Both the position numbers and the translations under genes were made by a program. The notes beneath the pieces were generated by a model. The model saw only the letters and a list, made by a program, of their open reading frames with translations. It was not told the DNA's origin and searched no databases. Of a stretch of 64,000 nt of DNA, positions 5,436 to 57,264 are shown one piece after another. The first letter of the stretch is position 1. Every line of letters begins with the position of its first letter. Location of the stretch: the NCBI GenBank assembly GCA_002737365.1, contig NSIL01000002.1, positions 152,596 to 216,595 of the forward strand. The letters run 5' to 3'. The stretch is from Acidobacterium sp. GTDB lineage: Bacteria > Acidobacteriota > Vicinamibacteria > Vicinamibacterales > UBA2999.

Positions 5436-6283
5436 CAAGGGGCATGGTTCTGGTCCGGCTAAAGCCGGACGCCACATTGGCCAGCGGGTTCTCACTGGTC
5501 GAACTGCTGGTGGCGCTGACGGTGTGCGCGTTGCTGTCGGGTGCCATCGCCGCGGTCACCCCACAGGCCCGTGCGGCGTTCGAGGCGACGCCGGAAGTGT
5601 TGGACCTGCAGCAGCGCGAACGGACCGTCGCCGATGTCCTCACGCGCGAGCTGCGGTCCTCGGCCTTGCTCGTTGCGGTGCGGGACGATGGAACGGTTGG
5701 GGAGAAGGGAGCGGCGGTGACGCTGCTCGATTGGGATGACGAAGACGACCGGTACCACGCGATCGAGGTGATCAACATCGCCGGCCCGGGTCGTGGCGTG
5801 CTCGACCTCGCCCAGTCAGGTCCGTCTGGCTCGCTGCTCCTGAAGTCGGGTGCGACCTGTCCATCCACCGGAGATGTCTGCGGCTTCGCCAAGGGAACGG
5901 CGGTGGCCATGGTGGACGTGGACGGCCGTGCTGAGGTGTTCACCGTCGGCGCACTCAACAGGACGACTCGCGCGCTGTCACCTTCGCACCGATTGAGCGG
6001 CGCGTATCCGGCCGGGTCAGCGGTGTTTGAAGTGGCGGCCAATACGTACTATCTGGAGGAGCAGGCCGACGCCTCGTTCACCCTGGTTCGAGAAACCGCC
6101 GCCGGTGCCGTGCAGCCCATGGTCGACTTCGTGGCGGCGCTCAGCTTCGGCGAGTGGCGATCGTCGGGACAGCTGGTTGGTGTCGACATCAGGGTACGCC
6201 TGGACGCGCGATCCGCGGTGCCGTCGCGCCGTGTGCCTGATCGCGTGCGCCAAATGTTGGTCACCTTGAGGAACCCGTCATGA
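5432..6283 (+). CDS. prepilin-type cleavage domain protein (GspJ/PilW-like)
   Basis: LASG/FSLVELLVALTVCALLSG class III signal; ATG overlaps the upstream stop (ATGA). Confidence 0.85.
   Translation: MTRGMVLVRLKPDATLASGFSLVELLVALTVCALLSGAIAAVTPQARAAFEATPEVLDLQQRERTVADVLTRELRSSALLVAVRDDGTVGEKGAAVTLLDWDDEDDRYHAIEVINIAGPGRGVLDLAQSGPSGSLLLKSGATCPSTGDVCGFAKGTAVAMVDVDGRAEVFTVGALNRTTRALSPSHRLSGAYPAGSAVFEVAANTYYLEEQADASFTLVRETAAGAVQPMVDFVAALSFGEWRSSGQLVGVDIRVRLDARSAVPSRRVPDRVRQMLVTLRNPS
5453..5475 (+). repeat. REP-like palindrome inside the GspJ-like CDS
   Basis: GTCCGGC-TAAA-GCCGGAC followed by GCCAC; same core as the 51747-51786 palindrome. Confidence 0.75.
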
Positions 6284-17920: not shown

Positions 17921-17988
17921 CTCTTCGTCCTTGCTACTACCTGCAGGGCTTGTTAAACTTACGCTCGTTTCCTCCAAGTCACCCCGAA

Positions 17989-20900
17989 ATGCATCTCGAA
18001 CGCTTAGAAATCTCAGGTTTTAAGTCCTTCTCGGATCGGTCCGAGCTGGCATTCGACCGTGGCGTCACCGCCATTGTCGGACCGAACGGCTGCGGTAAGT
18101 CCAACGTGGCCGACGCGCTGACGTGGGTGCTCGGCGAGCAAAGCGCCAAGAGCCTGCGTGGCGACAAAATGGAAGACGTGATCTTCAGCGGTTCCGATGC
18201 GCGCAAGCCCACCGGATCCGCCGAAGTCCGTCTCCGTTTCGGCAATGTCATCGTCCCGCCATCCCTGTTGAAGGAGATGGGTGCGGACGCCCAGGCTCAT
18301 GAGGCCAACGGCAATGGGCATCACCCGGAGCTGACGGCGATCATCGAGCAGGCGACCCGCGAGGTCGAGGTAACGCGCCGCCTGTATCGATCGGGGGAGA
18401 GCGAATACCTGATCGATGGCCAGACGTGCCGCCTGAAGGACATCCACGAACTGCTGATGGATACGGGCCTCGGCCAGAAGGCCTACGCCATCATCGAGCA
18501 GGGCAAGATCGGGATGATCCTGAGTTCGCGCCCAACCGACCGGCGCCAGCTGATCGAAGAGGCCGCCGGCATCACCAAATACAAGGCGCGCCGCCGCTCG
18601 GCCGAGCTGAAACTCGAAGCTGCGCAGCAGAACCTCACACGCCTCGACGACATCGTCTACGAAATCGACAAGCAGCGCGGATCGCTGAAGCGCCAAGCCG
18701 CCAAGGCCCGTCGCTACACCCGCTTGCGCGACGAGATGCGGCGGTGGGAAAAGGTCCTGTTTGCACGCCGCTACCGCACGCTGTCGGACGCCATCGAGAC
18801 GGCGCGGACCCGCCTGCAGGACGCGCGCACCAACGAAGGCGTCGCCGCTGCACGGCTGGCCGAAGTCGAGAACGACCTGGCCCGCATTCGCATCGAGTTG
18901 GCGACGGCCGACCATATCGCCACCACCGCTCGCGAGACGGTGCACGGTCACGAACTCGAGATCAATCGCCGCCAGCAGCAGATCGCGCTTGATACACAGC
19001 AGGCGGAGATGCTCCGCGCCCGCGCTGAGGAACTCGACACCGAGCGCCAGCAGCTTGAGGCTCGCCGGGAGCCCGAGCAATTGGCCCTGGAAGGGCGCCG
19101 CCTGGCCGCCGCTGAAGCCACCGCGGCACGCGAAGAAGCCGCGGCTCTGGCCAGTGACGCGGGTGCGGAGTACGCACGGGCGCAGCAAGCCATTGAATCG
19201 CTTGAGCAGGATGTCGAGCGCGCGCGCGCCGACGTCTACGCGGTGCTCAACACGATCATGGCGCTCAACGCCGCGCATGACAACGCCGGCGCCCAGCGCG
19301 AGCGCGCCATGGCGACCTCGGGCCGCCTTGAGCAGGAAGCCAGCGAGCTGGCGGCCGAACTCGAGAAGGCCCGCGCCCAGCGGCAGATGGCGGCTGAGGC
19401 CTTGCGCCGCGCGCAGGATGGTCTCGACGCCGCCAGGGTGGCGCGTGGGGCCCGCGAGTCGGAACTGGCCAGTGCGCGCATTGAACACGAATGGCGGTCG
19501 CGCGACGTGCGAACGCGCGAGCAGGACGTCGCGGCGATGACGGCCCGGCTGCACTCGCTCGAAGAGATCGACACCCACCGCTCTGGCTTTGCCGACGCGG
19601 CGCGCATGGTGCTGGTCAACGCCAACGGCAAGGTTGGCCAGATGGGCGCCCTCGCCGACTTTCTTGACGTCGAACCGAAGTACGAGCGAGCGGTCGAAGC
19701 CTGTCTCGGCGACTTGCTGCAGCACGTCGTGGTCGAGCGTCTCGATCACGTCTCGGCTGGACTGAAGTTGATCCGTCAGGAAAACGCCGGCCGTTGCGGC
19801 TTCATCGTCGGACGCCCTGATAATGGAGCGGCCGTGGCCACCTACTCGGGCACTGGCGAAGGCTCGTTGGTCGAGATCAGTGGCGACAAACCTTCAGGTT
19901 TGTCGCTGATCCCGTCTGGTGCCGTCGCGCTGACGTCGGTCGTGCGCATCGGTGGTCCGTTCCCGGAGGCGGTTCAGGCCGTCATGGGCGGCGCCATGAT
20001 CGCCGAATCGTTCGAGGCGGCCGCGCGCATTGCCCCGACCGTCCCGTTTCCGGTGGCCACGCTCGAAGGCGATGTGTTCCGCGGCCGCTACGTGGTGACC
20101 GGCGGCGACAAGGCCGAGTCGCGCGGCATTCTCGCCACCAAGCGCGAGATCAAGGAACTGCGCGAGAAGCTCGCCGGGTCGAAGATTGCGCTCGAACAGT
20201 TGGTGGCGGAAACCGCCAACTTCGAACAGGCCATTGCCTTTGCAACCGCCGCCATTGCCGGCCTGTCGGCGGAATTCCACCTCCAGGAAAAAGCCATCGT
20301 CGGGGTCGAAGGTCAGAGCCAGCGCGCGGCCGAAGACGAGTTCCGCGTGCAGCAGCGCACCGAGCTCGTGCAGACCGAGGTCAGCCGCGTTCGTGAGGAA
20401 GTGGCCGGCCTTGATGCCCGCCAGGCCGAAGCCCGCGAGTCGATCGCGCGCCTGAACGAACAACGCACGGAAGCCGACCTGTTGCTGTCCGAGTCGCAGC
20501 GGAAGCTCTCCGAGGCACGCGACACGGCCGAGGGCCTGAGCCTGAAGGCCGCCGAAGCGCGCGCCGCCCACGCCGGCCTCGTCGAACGCAGTGCCGGTGC
20601 GCTGGCCGAAGTGGCCCGCATGGCAGAGGCGGCGGCTGAACTCGAACGCCGCGTCCAGACGTGTACCCGCGACGTGGCGTTGATGCGCGACCAGCGCGAG
20701 CGCCTGCTCAACGCGATTGCCGACGGCCAGCGCCTGATGGACGACGATGTCGGCAGGCTCCAGGGCTTGCGCGAGGACATGATCGTCGCCGACGAGCTCG
20801 CCCTGACGATTAAGCAGTCGGCGGAGAAGCAGGAAGAAGTGATCCGCGACGCCCGCCGCGCCGTGGATGCCCTGCGCGCCCTGGCCGCTGAAGTCGACGT

Positions 20901-21786
20901 GCAGCGCGCCACCGCCGAGTCAGACCTGACGCACCTGGCGCAGCAGTCCATGGATACCGTCAACGCCACGCTCGACGAGATCCGCGAGCAGGTGGCCGAG
21001 ATGGAAGCGGCGGGGCAGATCGAACCCGACGTGCGCGCGATTCGCGCCGCCGAAGCCGCCGAGCCTGACGAAGAAGACGAGCAGCTCAGTGAGGCCCTCG
21101 GTGCATCTGGCGCACCCGAGGCGCTTGAGGCACCTTCGGAACGCATGACCGCCGAAGAAGCCATTGCCGAATTGCGCGACAAGATCGACCGCATGGGGCC
21201 GGTCAACATGATGGCCATCGAGCAGTCCACCGAGCTCGAGGCGCGTCACCTGTTCCTGTCGACGCAGCGCCAGGACCTGGTCGACTCGATCTTGCAGACC
21301 AACGAGGCGATCAGCAAGATCGACGAGACGACGCATGCCCGCTTTCGTGAAGCGTTCAGCGCCATCAACGACAATTTCCAGGTCACCTTTTCGACGTTGT
21401 TCGGCGGCGGCAAGGCCGGCATTGCGTTGCTCGATGAAAACGATCCACTCGAAAGCGGTATCGACATCGTCGCCCAGCCGCCAGGCAAGCGGCTGCAGAG
21501 CGTGATGTTGCTGTCGGGCGGTGAGAAGGCCCTGACGGCGATCGCCCTGATGTTCGCGATCTTCCGCTACAAGCCGAGCCCGTTCTGCCTGCTCGACGAA
21601 ATCGACGCGCCGCTGGACGATGCCAACATCGGGCGGTTCATCGACATGCTGAAGTCGATGATGGACAAGACCCAGTTCATCATCATCACCCACAGCCGCA
21701 AGACCATGGAGATCGCCGACCGGCTCTACGGCGTGACGATGGAAGAGCCGGGCGTGTCGAAGCTGATTTCGATTCAGCTGAACTAG
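17989..21786 (+). CDS. smc: chromosome segregation protein SMC
   Basis: MHLERLEISGFKSFSDR, GPNGCGKSNVADAL, long coiled coils, hinge, LLSGGEKALTAIALMFAIF, FCLLDEIDAPLDDANI. Confidence 0.97.
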   Translation: MHLERLEISGFKSFSDRSELAFDRGVTAIVGPNGCGKSNVADALTWVLGEQSAKSLRGDKMEDVIFSGSDARKPTGSAEVRLRFGNVIVPPSLLKEMGADAQAHEANGNGHHPELTAIIEQATREVEVTRRLYRSGESEYLIDGQTCRLKDIHELLMDTGLGQKAYAIIEQGKIGMILSSRPTDRRQLIEEAAGITKYKARRRSAELKLEAAQQNLTRLDDIVYEIDKQRGSLKRQAAKARRYTRLRDEMRRWEKVLFARRYRTLSDAIETARTRLQDARTNEGVAAARLAEVENDLARIRIELATADHIATTARETVHGHELEINRRQQQIALDTQQAEMLRARAEELDTERQQLEARREPEQLALEGRRLAAAEATAAREEAAALASDAGAEYARAQQAIESLEQDVERARADVYAVLNTIMALNAAHDNAGAQRERAMATSGRLEQEASELAAELEKARAQRQMAAEALRRAQDGLDAARVARGARESELASARIEHEWRSRDVRTREQDVAAMTARLHSLEEIDTHRSGFADAARMVLVNANGKVGQMGALADFLDVEPKYERAVEACLGDLLQHVVVERLDHVSAGLKLIRQENAGRCGFIVGRPDNGAAVATYSGTGEGSLVEISGDKPSGLSLIPSGAVALTSVVRIGGPFPEAVQAVMGGAMIAESFEAAARIAPTVPFPVATLEGDVFRGRYVVTGGDKAESRGILATKREIKELREKLAGSKIALEQLVAETANFEQAIAFATAAIAGLSAEFHLQEKAIVGVEGQSQRAAEDEFRVQQRTELVQTEVSRVREEVAGLDARQAEARESIARLNEQRTEADLLLSESQRKLSEARDTAEGLSLKAAEARAAHAGLVERSAGALAEVARMAEAAAELERRVQTCTRDVALMRDQRERLLNAIADGQRLMDDDVGRLQGLREDMIVADELALTIKQSAEKQEEVIRDARRAVDALRALAAEVDVQRATAESDLTHLAQQSMDTVNATLDEIREQVAEMEAAGQIEPDVRAIRAAEAAEPDEEDEQLSEALGASGAPEALEAPSERMTAEEAIAELRDKIDRMGPVNMMAIEQSTELEARHLFLSTQRQDLVDSILQTNEAISKIDETTHARFREAFSAINDNFQVTFSTLFGGGKAGIALLDENDPLESGIDIVAQPPGKRLQSVMLLSGGEKALTAIALMFAIFRYKPSPFCLLDEIDAPLDDANIGRFIDMLKSMMDKTQFIIITHSRKTMEIADRLYGVTMEEPGVSKLISIQLN
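19883..19906 (+). repeat. palindrome inside smc
   Basis: GCGACAAACCT-TC-AGGTTTGTCGC, 11-bp perfect stem. Confidence 0.85.
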
Positions 21787-21945: not shown

Positions 21946-22422
21946 ATGTCGGCAGTGGACCTTGACATCACTAAGCGGGTGCTCGCGGCGCTGGAGCTGC
22001 ACGGCGTGCGTTACGCCATTTTCGGGGCGGTCGCACTCAACCTGCATGGTCTCGCGCGATTTACGGCCGATCTGGATCTCTTCATCGAGCCGACAGCGGA
22101 GAACGTCGAGCGATTGAGAAACGCGCTGAAGACGGCCGTCGACGATCCGGCGATCGACGAAATCTCGACCGAGGATCTGCTCGGAGACTATCCGGCGGTG
22201 CAATACAACCCGCCGGATGCCACCTTTCACATTGATATCCTCACCCGGCTCGGCGACGCGTACGGCTTCGCCGACCTGAAGGTCGAGCGAATCGCGCTTG
22301 ATGAGCTCACCGTGTCCGTGGTCACACCTCAGACGTTGTACGAAATGAAGCGCGATACTGTCCGATTGAAGGACAAGGCGGATGCGCACGCCTTGAAAGA
22401 GCGTTTCGGTCTGAAGGATTGA
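21946..22422 (+). CDS. nucleotidyltransferase-fold protein (AbiEii/MNT-like)
   Basis: GVRYAIFGAVALNLHGLARFTADLDLFIEPTAENVERL, a DxD nucleotidyltransferase core. Confidence 0.75.
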   Translation: MSAVDLDITKRVLAALELHGVRYAIFGAVALNLHGLARFTADLDLFIEPTAENVERLRNALKTAVDDPAIDEISTEDLLGDYPAVQYNPPDATFHIDILTRLGDAYGFADLKVERIALDELTVSVVTPQTLYEMKRDTVRLKDKADAHALKERFGLKD

Positions 22423-51746: not shown

Positions 51747-51786
51747 GTCGATGTGGCGTCCGGCTTTCGCCGGACGCCACATCGAC
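51747..51786. repeat. REP-like perfect palindrome between convergent genes
   Basis: GTCGATGTGGCGTCCGGC-TTTC-GCCGGACGCCACATCGAC, 18-bp perfect stem with 4-nt loop. Confidence 0.9.
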
Positions 51787-55031: not shown

Positions 55032-56000
55032 CTATGCGGTGGCGCCAACGAGCGTGGCGAATCTGGCGAGATCGATGTTGCCGCCCGAGACCACAGCGAC
55101 GACTTTCCCGGTGCCGGCGCGGCCGCTGATCGCCGCGGCGATGGCGCAGCCGGCGGCCCCTTCGGCGACGACGTGCACACGGTCGGCGGCATAGCGCATG
55201 GCAGCGGCAATGTCGGCGAGCTCCATCACGATCGACGCGTCGACCAGCTCCTTCAACAGCGGCCACATGGTCGTCAGCACCGACTTGCCGCCGGCGCCGT
55301 CGACGAATGACGGCGTCCAGCCGTCGAAGTAGCTGGGCTCGCCCTTGGCGAGGGAGGTCGCCAGCGGCGATGCCGTCGCGGGTTCGGCCGCATAGACCTT
55401 GACCGATGGCTTGCGCGCGCGCATCACCGAGCCAATCCCGGACAACAACCCACCGCCGCCGAGCGAGGCGACCACGGCATCGACCTCCGGCAGATCGTCG
55501 AGAATCTCGAGGCCCGCGGTCGCGTTGCCGGCAATGAAGTCATCGTCATCGAACGGGTGAACGAAGTGACCACGCATGCGCGGCGACGCGTGCGCGATGA
55601 CGGTTTGCCAGCACTCGTCGTAGCTGGCCTTCGCGATGGTGGCGCCCAGGCGTTCGATCGAGCGCAGTTTGGTCTCAGGTGCCGTGTCCATGACCATGAC
55701 CGAGCACGGCACCCCGGCCCGCCGGGCGGCAAAAGCGACACCCTGCGCGGCGTTGCCGGCGCTCACCGTCCACACGCCGTCGCGCAGTTGGTCGCCCGTC
55801 AGCTTGCGCACGGCATTCCACGCGCCGCGGATCTTGAACGATCCAATCGGCTGCAGTGACTCGAGCTTCAGGTAGATTTCTGGGCGCGGTGGTCCGTCGG
55901 CGGCGAACGGCAGATCCAGCTTGATCAGCGGCGTGCGGACGGCCGCCTCGTAGACGTGCCGCGCGGCATCTTCGATGGCTTCGATGGGGATGTGCCGCAT
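55032..56000 (-). CDS. PLP-dependent threonine/serine dehydratase-like enzyme
   Basis: PIGSFKIRGAWNAV lysine motif, SLGGGGLLSGIGSVMRARKP. Confidence 0.92.
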   Translation of the reverse strand: MRHIPIEAIEDAARHVYEAAVRTPLIKLDLPFAADGPPRPEIYLKLESLQPIGSFKIRGAWNAVRKLTGDQLRDGVWTVSAGNAAQGVAFAARRAGVPCSVMVMDTAPETKLRSIERLGATIAKASYDECWQTVIAHASPRMRGHFVHPFDDDDFIAGNATAGLEILDDLPEVDAVVASLGGGGLLSGIGSVMRARKPSVKVYAAEPATASPLATSLAKGEPSYFDGWTPSFVDGAGGKSVLTTMWPLLKELVDASIVMELADIAAAMRYAADRVHVVAEGAAGCAIAAAISGRAGTGKVVAVVSGGNIDLARFATLVGATA

Positions 56001-56093
56001 GGAGACCGGAAAATCGTATCATTCAACAGCTAAGGTGCCTATGGTACGTACGGTGCCTCGGGTGCCAACGGGTTGGTGCCGAATGCGAACAAT

Positions 56094-57264
56094 GAGAACG
56101 ACTTGCTGCGTCCTTCTGCTTGCTGGTTACGCTGGTGTGCTCGCCGCTCAGGACGGGGTCCGGCCGCGAGCGCGCGAGATCGGGCTGGCGCCGGGGGTGT
56201 TCGCGCCGGGTCCCCTGAATGCGATCACCGACGTCAGTGGTGTGAGCGTGGGGCACGCGACGCTGATCGAGGGCGACAACGTCCGGACGGGCGTCACCGT
56301 GATCGTGCCGCATGCCGGCAACGTGTTCCAGGACAAGGTGGCCGGCGCGGTGTTTGTGGGCAACGCGTTCGGCAAGTTGGCCGGCTCGACGCAGGTGGAT
56401 GAATTGGGCACCATCGAAACGCCGATCGCGTTGACCAATACGCTGAGCGTCGGTGCGGTCATGGACGGCCTGGTGCGGTGGACGCTCGAGCAACCGGGCA
56501 ACCAGAACGTGCGCTCCGTCAACGCGCTGGTGGGCGAGACCAACGATGGCGGCCTCAACGACATTCGTGGCCAGCACGTGAAGCCCCAGCATGTGCTCGA
56601 GGCGTTGCACGCCGCAGCCACAGGCCCGGTGCTTGAGGGCAGTGTCGGGGCCGGCACCGGGACACAGGCCTTCGGATGGAAGGGCGGCATTGGCACCGCG
56701 TCTCGCAAACTCTCGGCGAGCCAGGGGGGATACACGCTCGGCGTGATCGTCCAATCCAACTACGGCGGCGTGCTCGCGATGGGCGGTGCGCCGGTGGGGC
56801 AGTTGCTCGGGCGCTATGCGTATCAGCCTCGGCCGGTGGCGTTGGACCAACCTGAAGGTTGGTCCCCACAGGCTGGTGCCACCAACGGTGATGGCTCCTG
56901 CCTGATCATTGTCGCCACCGACGCACCGATTGATGCCCGCGATCTGAAGCGGGTGGCGGCGCGTGCCATCTACGGACTGGCGCGCACCGGCTCGTCGTAC
57001 AGCAACGGCAGTGGCGATTTCGCGATCGCCTTTTCCACCGCCTCAGTACTCCGCACCCGATTCGGATCGGCCGCGCCGCAGGTCCGCACCGTGCTGCCAA
57101 CCGACGGGGTATCCCCCCTGTTTCAGGCCGCCCTGGAAGCGACCGAAGAGGCGGTTTACAACTCCCTTCTGAAGGCGACCAGCGTCACCAGCCGGTGGGG
57201 GAGTGCCGAGGCACTGCCGGTGGAGCGGGTTCGAGCCATCCTGAAGGGCTACCCGAGGCCATAG
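56094..57264 (+). CDS. P1 family (DmpA-like) aminopeptidase
   Basis: AITDVSGVSVGHATLIEGDNVRTGVTVIVPH, LTNTLSVGAVMDG, NDGGLNDI, GAGTGTQAFGWKGGIGTASR. Confidence 0.9.
56844..56865 (+). repeat. palindrome inside the P1 peptidase CDS
   Basis: GGACCAACCT-GA-AGGTTGGTCC, 10-bp perfect stem. Confidence 0.85.

Follow-up and report, generated by a model that had tools for sequence, protein, structure and literature searches.

Palindromes in an acidobacterial smc gene and a peptidase gene as probable copies of a GTRG-tagged REP family with a biased reading frame inside genes

Introduction

The closest described relatives of the palindromes considered here are the GTAG-tagged REPs (Di Nocera et al., 2013; PMC3733652). 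The portion of that paper drawn on here describes dispersed palindromes of 20-40 bp with an unpaired GTAG-like tetranucleotide at one end, complementary stem subtypes and a TY-type 2-nt loop, all of which recur in the family below. GTGG is the main tag of one REP family described there, and the GTAG-20 family of O. terrae carries the same GTGG tag as the elements presented here, a likeness by description rather than by stems set side by side (PMC3733652). Some of the REPs in that portion are intragenic, with repair genes and tRNA synthetases among the hosts, and the same holds for some of ours; intragenic REPs are thus already known from 2013, and the authors suggest that they may be neutral owing to their position (PMC3733652). 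The setting here is an Acidobacteriota genus, a group for which the same portion reports transposases flanked by terminal inverted repeats.

REPs of this type are linked to RAYT proteins. TnpA_REP (RAYT) proteins bind and cleave such hairpins, and in one system a variant with a GTGG tag is still cleaved, at CA and CC (PMC8266576). The perfect palindromes with a GTAG-like tag found here resemble the group 3 REPs of that study (PMC8266576), and sister REP families in the same genus and family of bacteria flank RAYT genes as REPtrons; unlike those systems, the family described here (family 1) has no RAYT found beside it.

Rickettsia palindromic elements (RPEs) offer a second comparison, as palindromic repeats that sit in frame in unrelated protein genes and are apparently tolerated there. 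RPE-4 and RPE-6 of R. conorii end in CGTC, and the portion of PMC3733652 drawn on here ties no transposase to CGTC repeats; RPEs are described elsewhere as ~150 bp long with a conserved encoded ORF (PMC10969869). A sequence-only reading of this locus had named RPEs as the nearest precedent. The unit here is 26 nt with a GTRG tag, so that membership fails on both tag and length, and the GTAG-tagged REP linked to RAYT is the closer relative.

Architecture of the element

The window, meaning the whole stretch of 64,000 nucleotides that was analysed, lies on contig C12 of a 3.05 Mb genome that is 97% complete (G000). Both palindromes singled out by the sequence-only reading are present, together with the two compensatory differences between them: GCGACAAACCTTCAGGTTTGTCGC at 19883-19906 on the plus strand within smc, and GGACCAACCTGAAGGTTGGTCC at 56844-56865 in the peptidase gene, equivalent to GGACCAACCTTCAGGTTGGTCC on the minus strand. 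Their arms are the longest among the tight hairpins of the window, bar one 18-bp hairpin at 51747. In both copies GTGG lies directly 5′ of the stem, which makes the units larger than the palindromes first noted. The full unit common to both is 26 nt, GTGG-S-GACAAACCT-TY-AGGTTTGTC-S (Table 1), and is made up of a GTRG tag that stays unpaired, 10 bp of stem in which the variable pairs covary, and a loop of 2 nt. The predicted single-strand fold is the expected hairpin with the tag free. The 24-bp palindrome reported in smc does exist, but its length is partly accidental: it is the stem of copy 1 with one extra pair borrowed from the tag (an 11th pair, using the last G of the tag), and the sequence-only reading saw 24 bp because this copy is a rare exception with a C after the element.

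Table 1. Coordinates of the REP copies, their host genes and loops, and the Y1_Tnp gene of the same genome (window positions unless another contig is given).
Feature	Position	Strand	Description
REP copy 1	19880..19905	+	GTGG-CGACAAACCTTCAGGTTTGTCG; inside smc; encodes GDKPSGLS, frame +2
REP copy 2	56844..56869	-	GTGG-GGACCAACCTTCAGGTTGGTCC; antisense in S58 (P1/DmpA-type) peptidase gene; DQPEGWSP on coding strand, frame -1
smc, host of copy 1	17950..21786	+	Longest ORF; Pfam SMC_N and SMC_hinge
Hypervariable SMC hinge loop holding copy 1	19810..19926	+	Length and sequence differ among all genus members
S58 peptidase gene, host of copy 2	55975..57264	+	Longest ORF; true start probably downstream
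Variable loop of S58 peptidase	56825..56889	+	REP content differs by species
Y1_Tnp transposase gene	C21 of G000 (L021 about 1360-2090)		AGTGAAGCAGSTTGAC inverted repeats on both sides (by eye)

Two further hairpins occur in the window. The first, at 5453-5475 on the minus strand, reads GTGGC-GTCCGGCT-TT-AGCCGGAC and lies just past the possible start of a gene for a type IV pilin- or pseudopilin-like protein (SGFSLVELLVAL), where it would encode LVRLKPDAT as part of the leader; a stem that matches it flanks RAYT genes in G114 and G108. The second, at 51747-51786, is the palindrome with the 18-bp stem, GTCGATGTGGCGTCCGGC-TTTC-GCCGGACGCCACATCGAC, which is mostly intergenic and built on the same GTCCGGC core. 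In contrast to normal REPs, the whole GTGG tag is base-paired here, with CCAC; the hairpin may represent a pair that has fused, or else a terminator.

Copy number, spread and covariation

The exact core AACCTTCAGGTT occurs 20 times in G000, against 0 for the reversed control. Nearly all of these copies match GTRG-S-GACNAACCTTCAGGTTNGTC-S exactly or closely, with a sharp drop in conservation at both ends. We built a covariance model (R1) from 22 distinct copies, which finds 48 copies in G000, 139 in G112, 135 in G107, 29 in G114, 15 in G108, 9 in G113 and 3 in G111, while its search of the genus-mates G109 and G110 returned 0. Copy 1 scores 45.5 bits (E 4e-10) and copy 2 scores 44 bits (E 1e-9), both being members of the model's training set. 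A strict pattern has matches in 8 of 193 genomes of the class, six of them in the genus, to which this pattern is practically confined. These counts bear out the earlier proposal of a replicated, probably mobile palindromic element and refute the possibility that only two copies exist.

The family has the anatomy of a GTAG-type REP: a palindrome of 20-40 bp dispersed in many copies, an unpaired GTAG-like tetranucleotide at one end and compensatory stem subtypes. The 141 tagged copies carry GTGG (135) or GTAG (6). A C directly 3′ of the element, which could pair with the last base of the tag, is almost absent (7 of 141; p 5e-16), and the tag is therefore kept unpaired. Covariation is found at three pairs with changes on both sides, giving a score reached by 0 of 500 shuffles; the outer stem pair is either G-C or C-G, and covariation is also seen at two inner pairs. 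Copies in unrelated genes have nothing in common beyond the 26 nt. In a REPIN, where two REPs in inverted order form one unit, most copies would be inverted pairs at a fixed spacing; some close inverted pairs exist here (for example G000 C12:118720/118782 and G112 C1:45395/45433), and many of the listed copies are single. Taken together, we consider it probable (about 0.86) that both palindromes are copies of a GTRG-tagged REP, a non-autonomous 26-nt hairpin that has spread through an Acidobacteriota genus and whose in-gene survivors are mostly in one mirror-frame pair.

Copies inside genes

Among the genus members compared, the palindrome in the SMC hinge loop occurs in G000 only. The two closest relatives, with hinge identities of 88-90%, have unrelated loop sequence and no palindrome. 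Since the loop itself is hypervariable, smc offers neither an exact insertion boundary nor a clean empty site. An alignment of orthologues, which could have revealed the same peptide encoded without the palindrome, instead shows orthologues with neither the peptide nor the palindrome.

The loop of the S58 (P1) peptidase holds family 1 in G000 and G112. In G108 and G113 it contains a REP of another GTGG family (family 2), while G107, G109 and G110 have other short repeats there; in G111 the loop is short and has no REP. The closest relatives of the peptidase are mostly MAGs labelled Acidobacteria or Acidobacteriota, with a few Vicinamibacterales, which suggests that G000 belongs to the Vicinamibacteria. 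Short tandem repeats fill the SMC hinge loop (L136, L137, L139) and the P1 loop (L106, L107, L108) of other species, examples being CACGGGGGTTC units that give GVPHGG and GCAGAAG units that give AEGRRQKAE. Loops of this sort seem prone to accumulate repeats of various unrelated kinds.

At least 29 of 145 sampled copies, mainly the best-scoring ones, lie in frame inside genes, as called by codon scoring of the flanking sequence with the element itself left out rather than by annotation. Hosts recognised by Pfam include SMC (hinge), the S58 peptidase, UvrD, LeuRS, PriA (with the copy between the 3′BD and the helicase), a Clp-type ATPase, an M16 peptidase, a tRNA methyltransferase and gamma-glutamyltranspeptidase. 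Where checked, the in-gene copies occupy loops or linkers that are variable. Comparison with solved structures of UvrD/PcrA, LeuRS, PriA and the S58 peptidase shows the element in stretches that are unaligned or gapped. AlphaFold models were made for the peptidase and for the SMC hinge and are of moderate quality (mean pLDDT 66-67); in them the peptide lies within, or borders on, segments of low confidence. The LeuRS of G112 has two tandem copies in its editing domain and the LeuRS of seven genus-mates has none. In three species a REP sits in the linker that precedes an acyltransferase domain, with the orientation in G000 opposite to that in G107 and G112. These orthologue comparisons point to insertion.

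Reading-frame bias

One of the six frames through the element is closed by a stop in the loop and five are open. The mirror frames +2 and -1 are used by 25 of the 29 in-gene copies (p about 4e-7), by 40 of 47 when the threshold is relaxed (p 2e-10), and by 23 of 26 once likely orthologous copies are left out (p 4e-7), although the in-gene copies in these statistics are not fully independent. Both favoured frames encode DKP[S/E/K]GLS, a short hydrophilic turn-like insert; the same peptide is read on either strand because the palindrome is in phase with itself. Orientation within the favoured frames is about equal, 13 against 12.

This bias suggests peptide-level selection on insertions. Insertions would land in all frames, and only those yielding a soluble turn-like peptide would survive; given the strong preference for one mirror-frame pair, the host protein probably decides which insertions persist. 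It had been proposed that the stem, and not the peptide, is maintained. The first half of that claim stands, as compensatory change and covariation argue for maintenance of the stem, while the mirror-frame bias speaks against the irrelevance of the peptide.

The alternative in which the hairpins are not mobile, having arisen and been kept by function as RNA-level signals (terminators, mRNA stabilisers or protein-binding sites), must be weighed against the same data. Many copies failed the in-gene test, and the portion of PMC3733652 drawn on here describes REPs in other bacteria as frequently transcribed and able to work at the RNA level. However, the aligned copies have no T run in the columns downstream of the hairpin, copies inside genes take both orientations about equally often, and a range of 139 to 0 copies within one genus argues against a required one. 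A terminator would also have no need of a conserved, one-sided unpaired tag. Intrinsic terminators are rejected on the missing T run and on the presence of both orientations inside ORFs, and an RNA-level origin as a whole is very improbable beside a mobile REP.

The transposase question

If the family is a mobile REP, a RAYT (TnpA_REP, an HUH/Y1 single-strand enzyme) would recognise the hairpin through its unpaired tag and stem, and the copies would move as single-stranded DNA. Copies have spread through the genus; most of those sampled fail the in-frame, in-gene test and a minority pass it. No RAYT flanked by family-1 REPs was found, including in G000 and G112. The mechanism is therefore drawn from the anatomy and from the sister families, which suggest that a RAYT may move family 1, and the family may be an orphan. 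Aligned copies give no clear signal of a cleavage dinucleotide (CT/CC) at the edge of the element.

In the genus and its family, a GTRG hairpin lies within 220 bp of 12 of 17 examined RAYT-class genes (~170 aa) versus 0 of 17 other Y1 transposases. Sister-family REPtrons adjoin RAYT genes in G113, G134, G114, G108 and others, with differing stems: AGGCAACCCC in G113, GGGCGGACCT in G134, GTCCGGCT/GTCCGCCT in G114 and G108, and CGACGGCT in G111, G114 and G110. The P1-loop palindrome of G113 and G108 matches in type the family-2 REPs that lie beside the G113 RAYT. In G111 (C10), a RAYT gene is followed directly by a small REP array of five head-to-tail GTAG-CGACGGCT hairpins (array at L426, 2143-2587 on the reverse complement).

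Several genes were considered as the cognate transposase. The single Y1_Tnp gene of G000 (L021) is of the other, non-RAYT class, as is the sole Y1_Tnp match found in G112; no family-1 REP adjoins L021, which is framed by a different inverted repeat (Table 1). Such framing resembles the TIR-flanked tyrosine transposases (TIRYTs) reported in Acidobacteria, and G114 has an orthologue at L093. Three Y1 transposase genes belonging to two different types, L089 (G112 C1) and L082 and L083 (G107), have family-1 REPs 0.7-0.8 kb downstream. The similar distance may be due to chance, and these copies are weak evidence for a cognate RAYT. The long HTH-bearing transposases L083 and L089 were rejected, the REPs downstream being suggestive only and their class showing 0 of 17 for a GTRG hairpin within 220 bp. 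The RAYT-class gene L086 of G107 is closest to RAYTs that carry GTAG-CGACGGCT REPs and has no family-1 copy within 2 kb.

Palindromes prompt template switching, and the family might have spread by such a non-RAYT process or by gene conversion between palindromes. The lack of a cognate RAYT in G000 and G112 is in keeping with this, as is the occupation of the same loop by different stems in different species. The GTRG tag, however, is conserved and unpaired as expected for RAYT recognition, sister families of the same anatomy flank RAYT genes, and the likeness between copies in unrelated genes ends with the 26 nt; we therefore regard this route as very improbable. Chance resemblance between two unrelated palindromes, to which a third exact ACCTTCAGGT in the window at 22274 lends some colour as an untagged chance match without the full stem, has a negligible probability and is excluded by the reversed control, the R1 matches in G000 and the shared tag.

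Biological meaning

What looks new in the GTRG-tagged REP described here is the family itself, its acidobacterial setting, the frame bias and the repeated insertion into the same loops. The portion of PMC3733652 drawn on here makes no mention of a mirror-frame bias, and no report of such a bias, or of different REP families in one loop, was found in the part of the literature covered. A bolder idea is that the stem has been shaped for in-gene survival, as both strands give nearly the same soluble turn peptide (DKPSGLS / DKPEGLS). We consider this unlikely; if true, the element could enter essential proteins in either orientation and would diversify proteins by serving as a prefabricated module for loops or linkers.

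Tens to hundreds of REP copies are present in one Acidobacteriota genus, some of them in core proteins (SMC hinge, UvrD, PriA, LeuRS), and loops that were hit repeatedly mark sites that tolerate insertion. Its species range from 0 to 139 copies and several of its REP families have resident RAYTs, so that the genus is a natural series for REP spread and loss. Through the mirror-frame bias, the filter that selection on proteins may impose on a selfish DNA hairpin can be counted directly.
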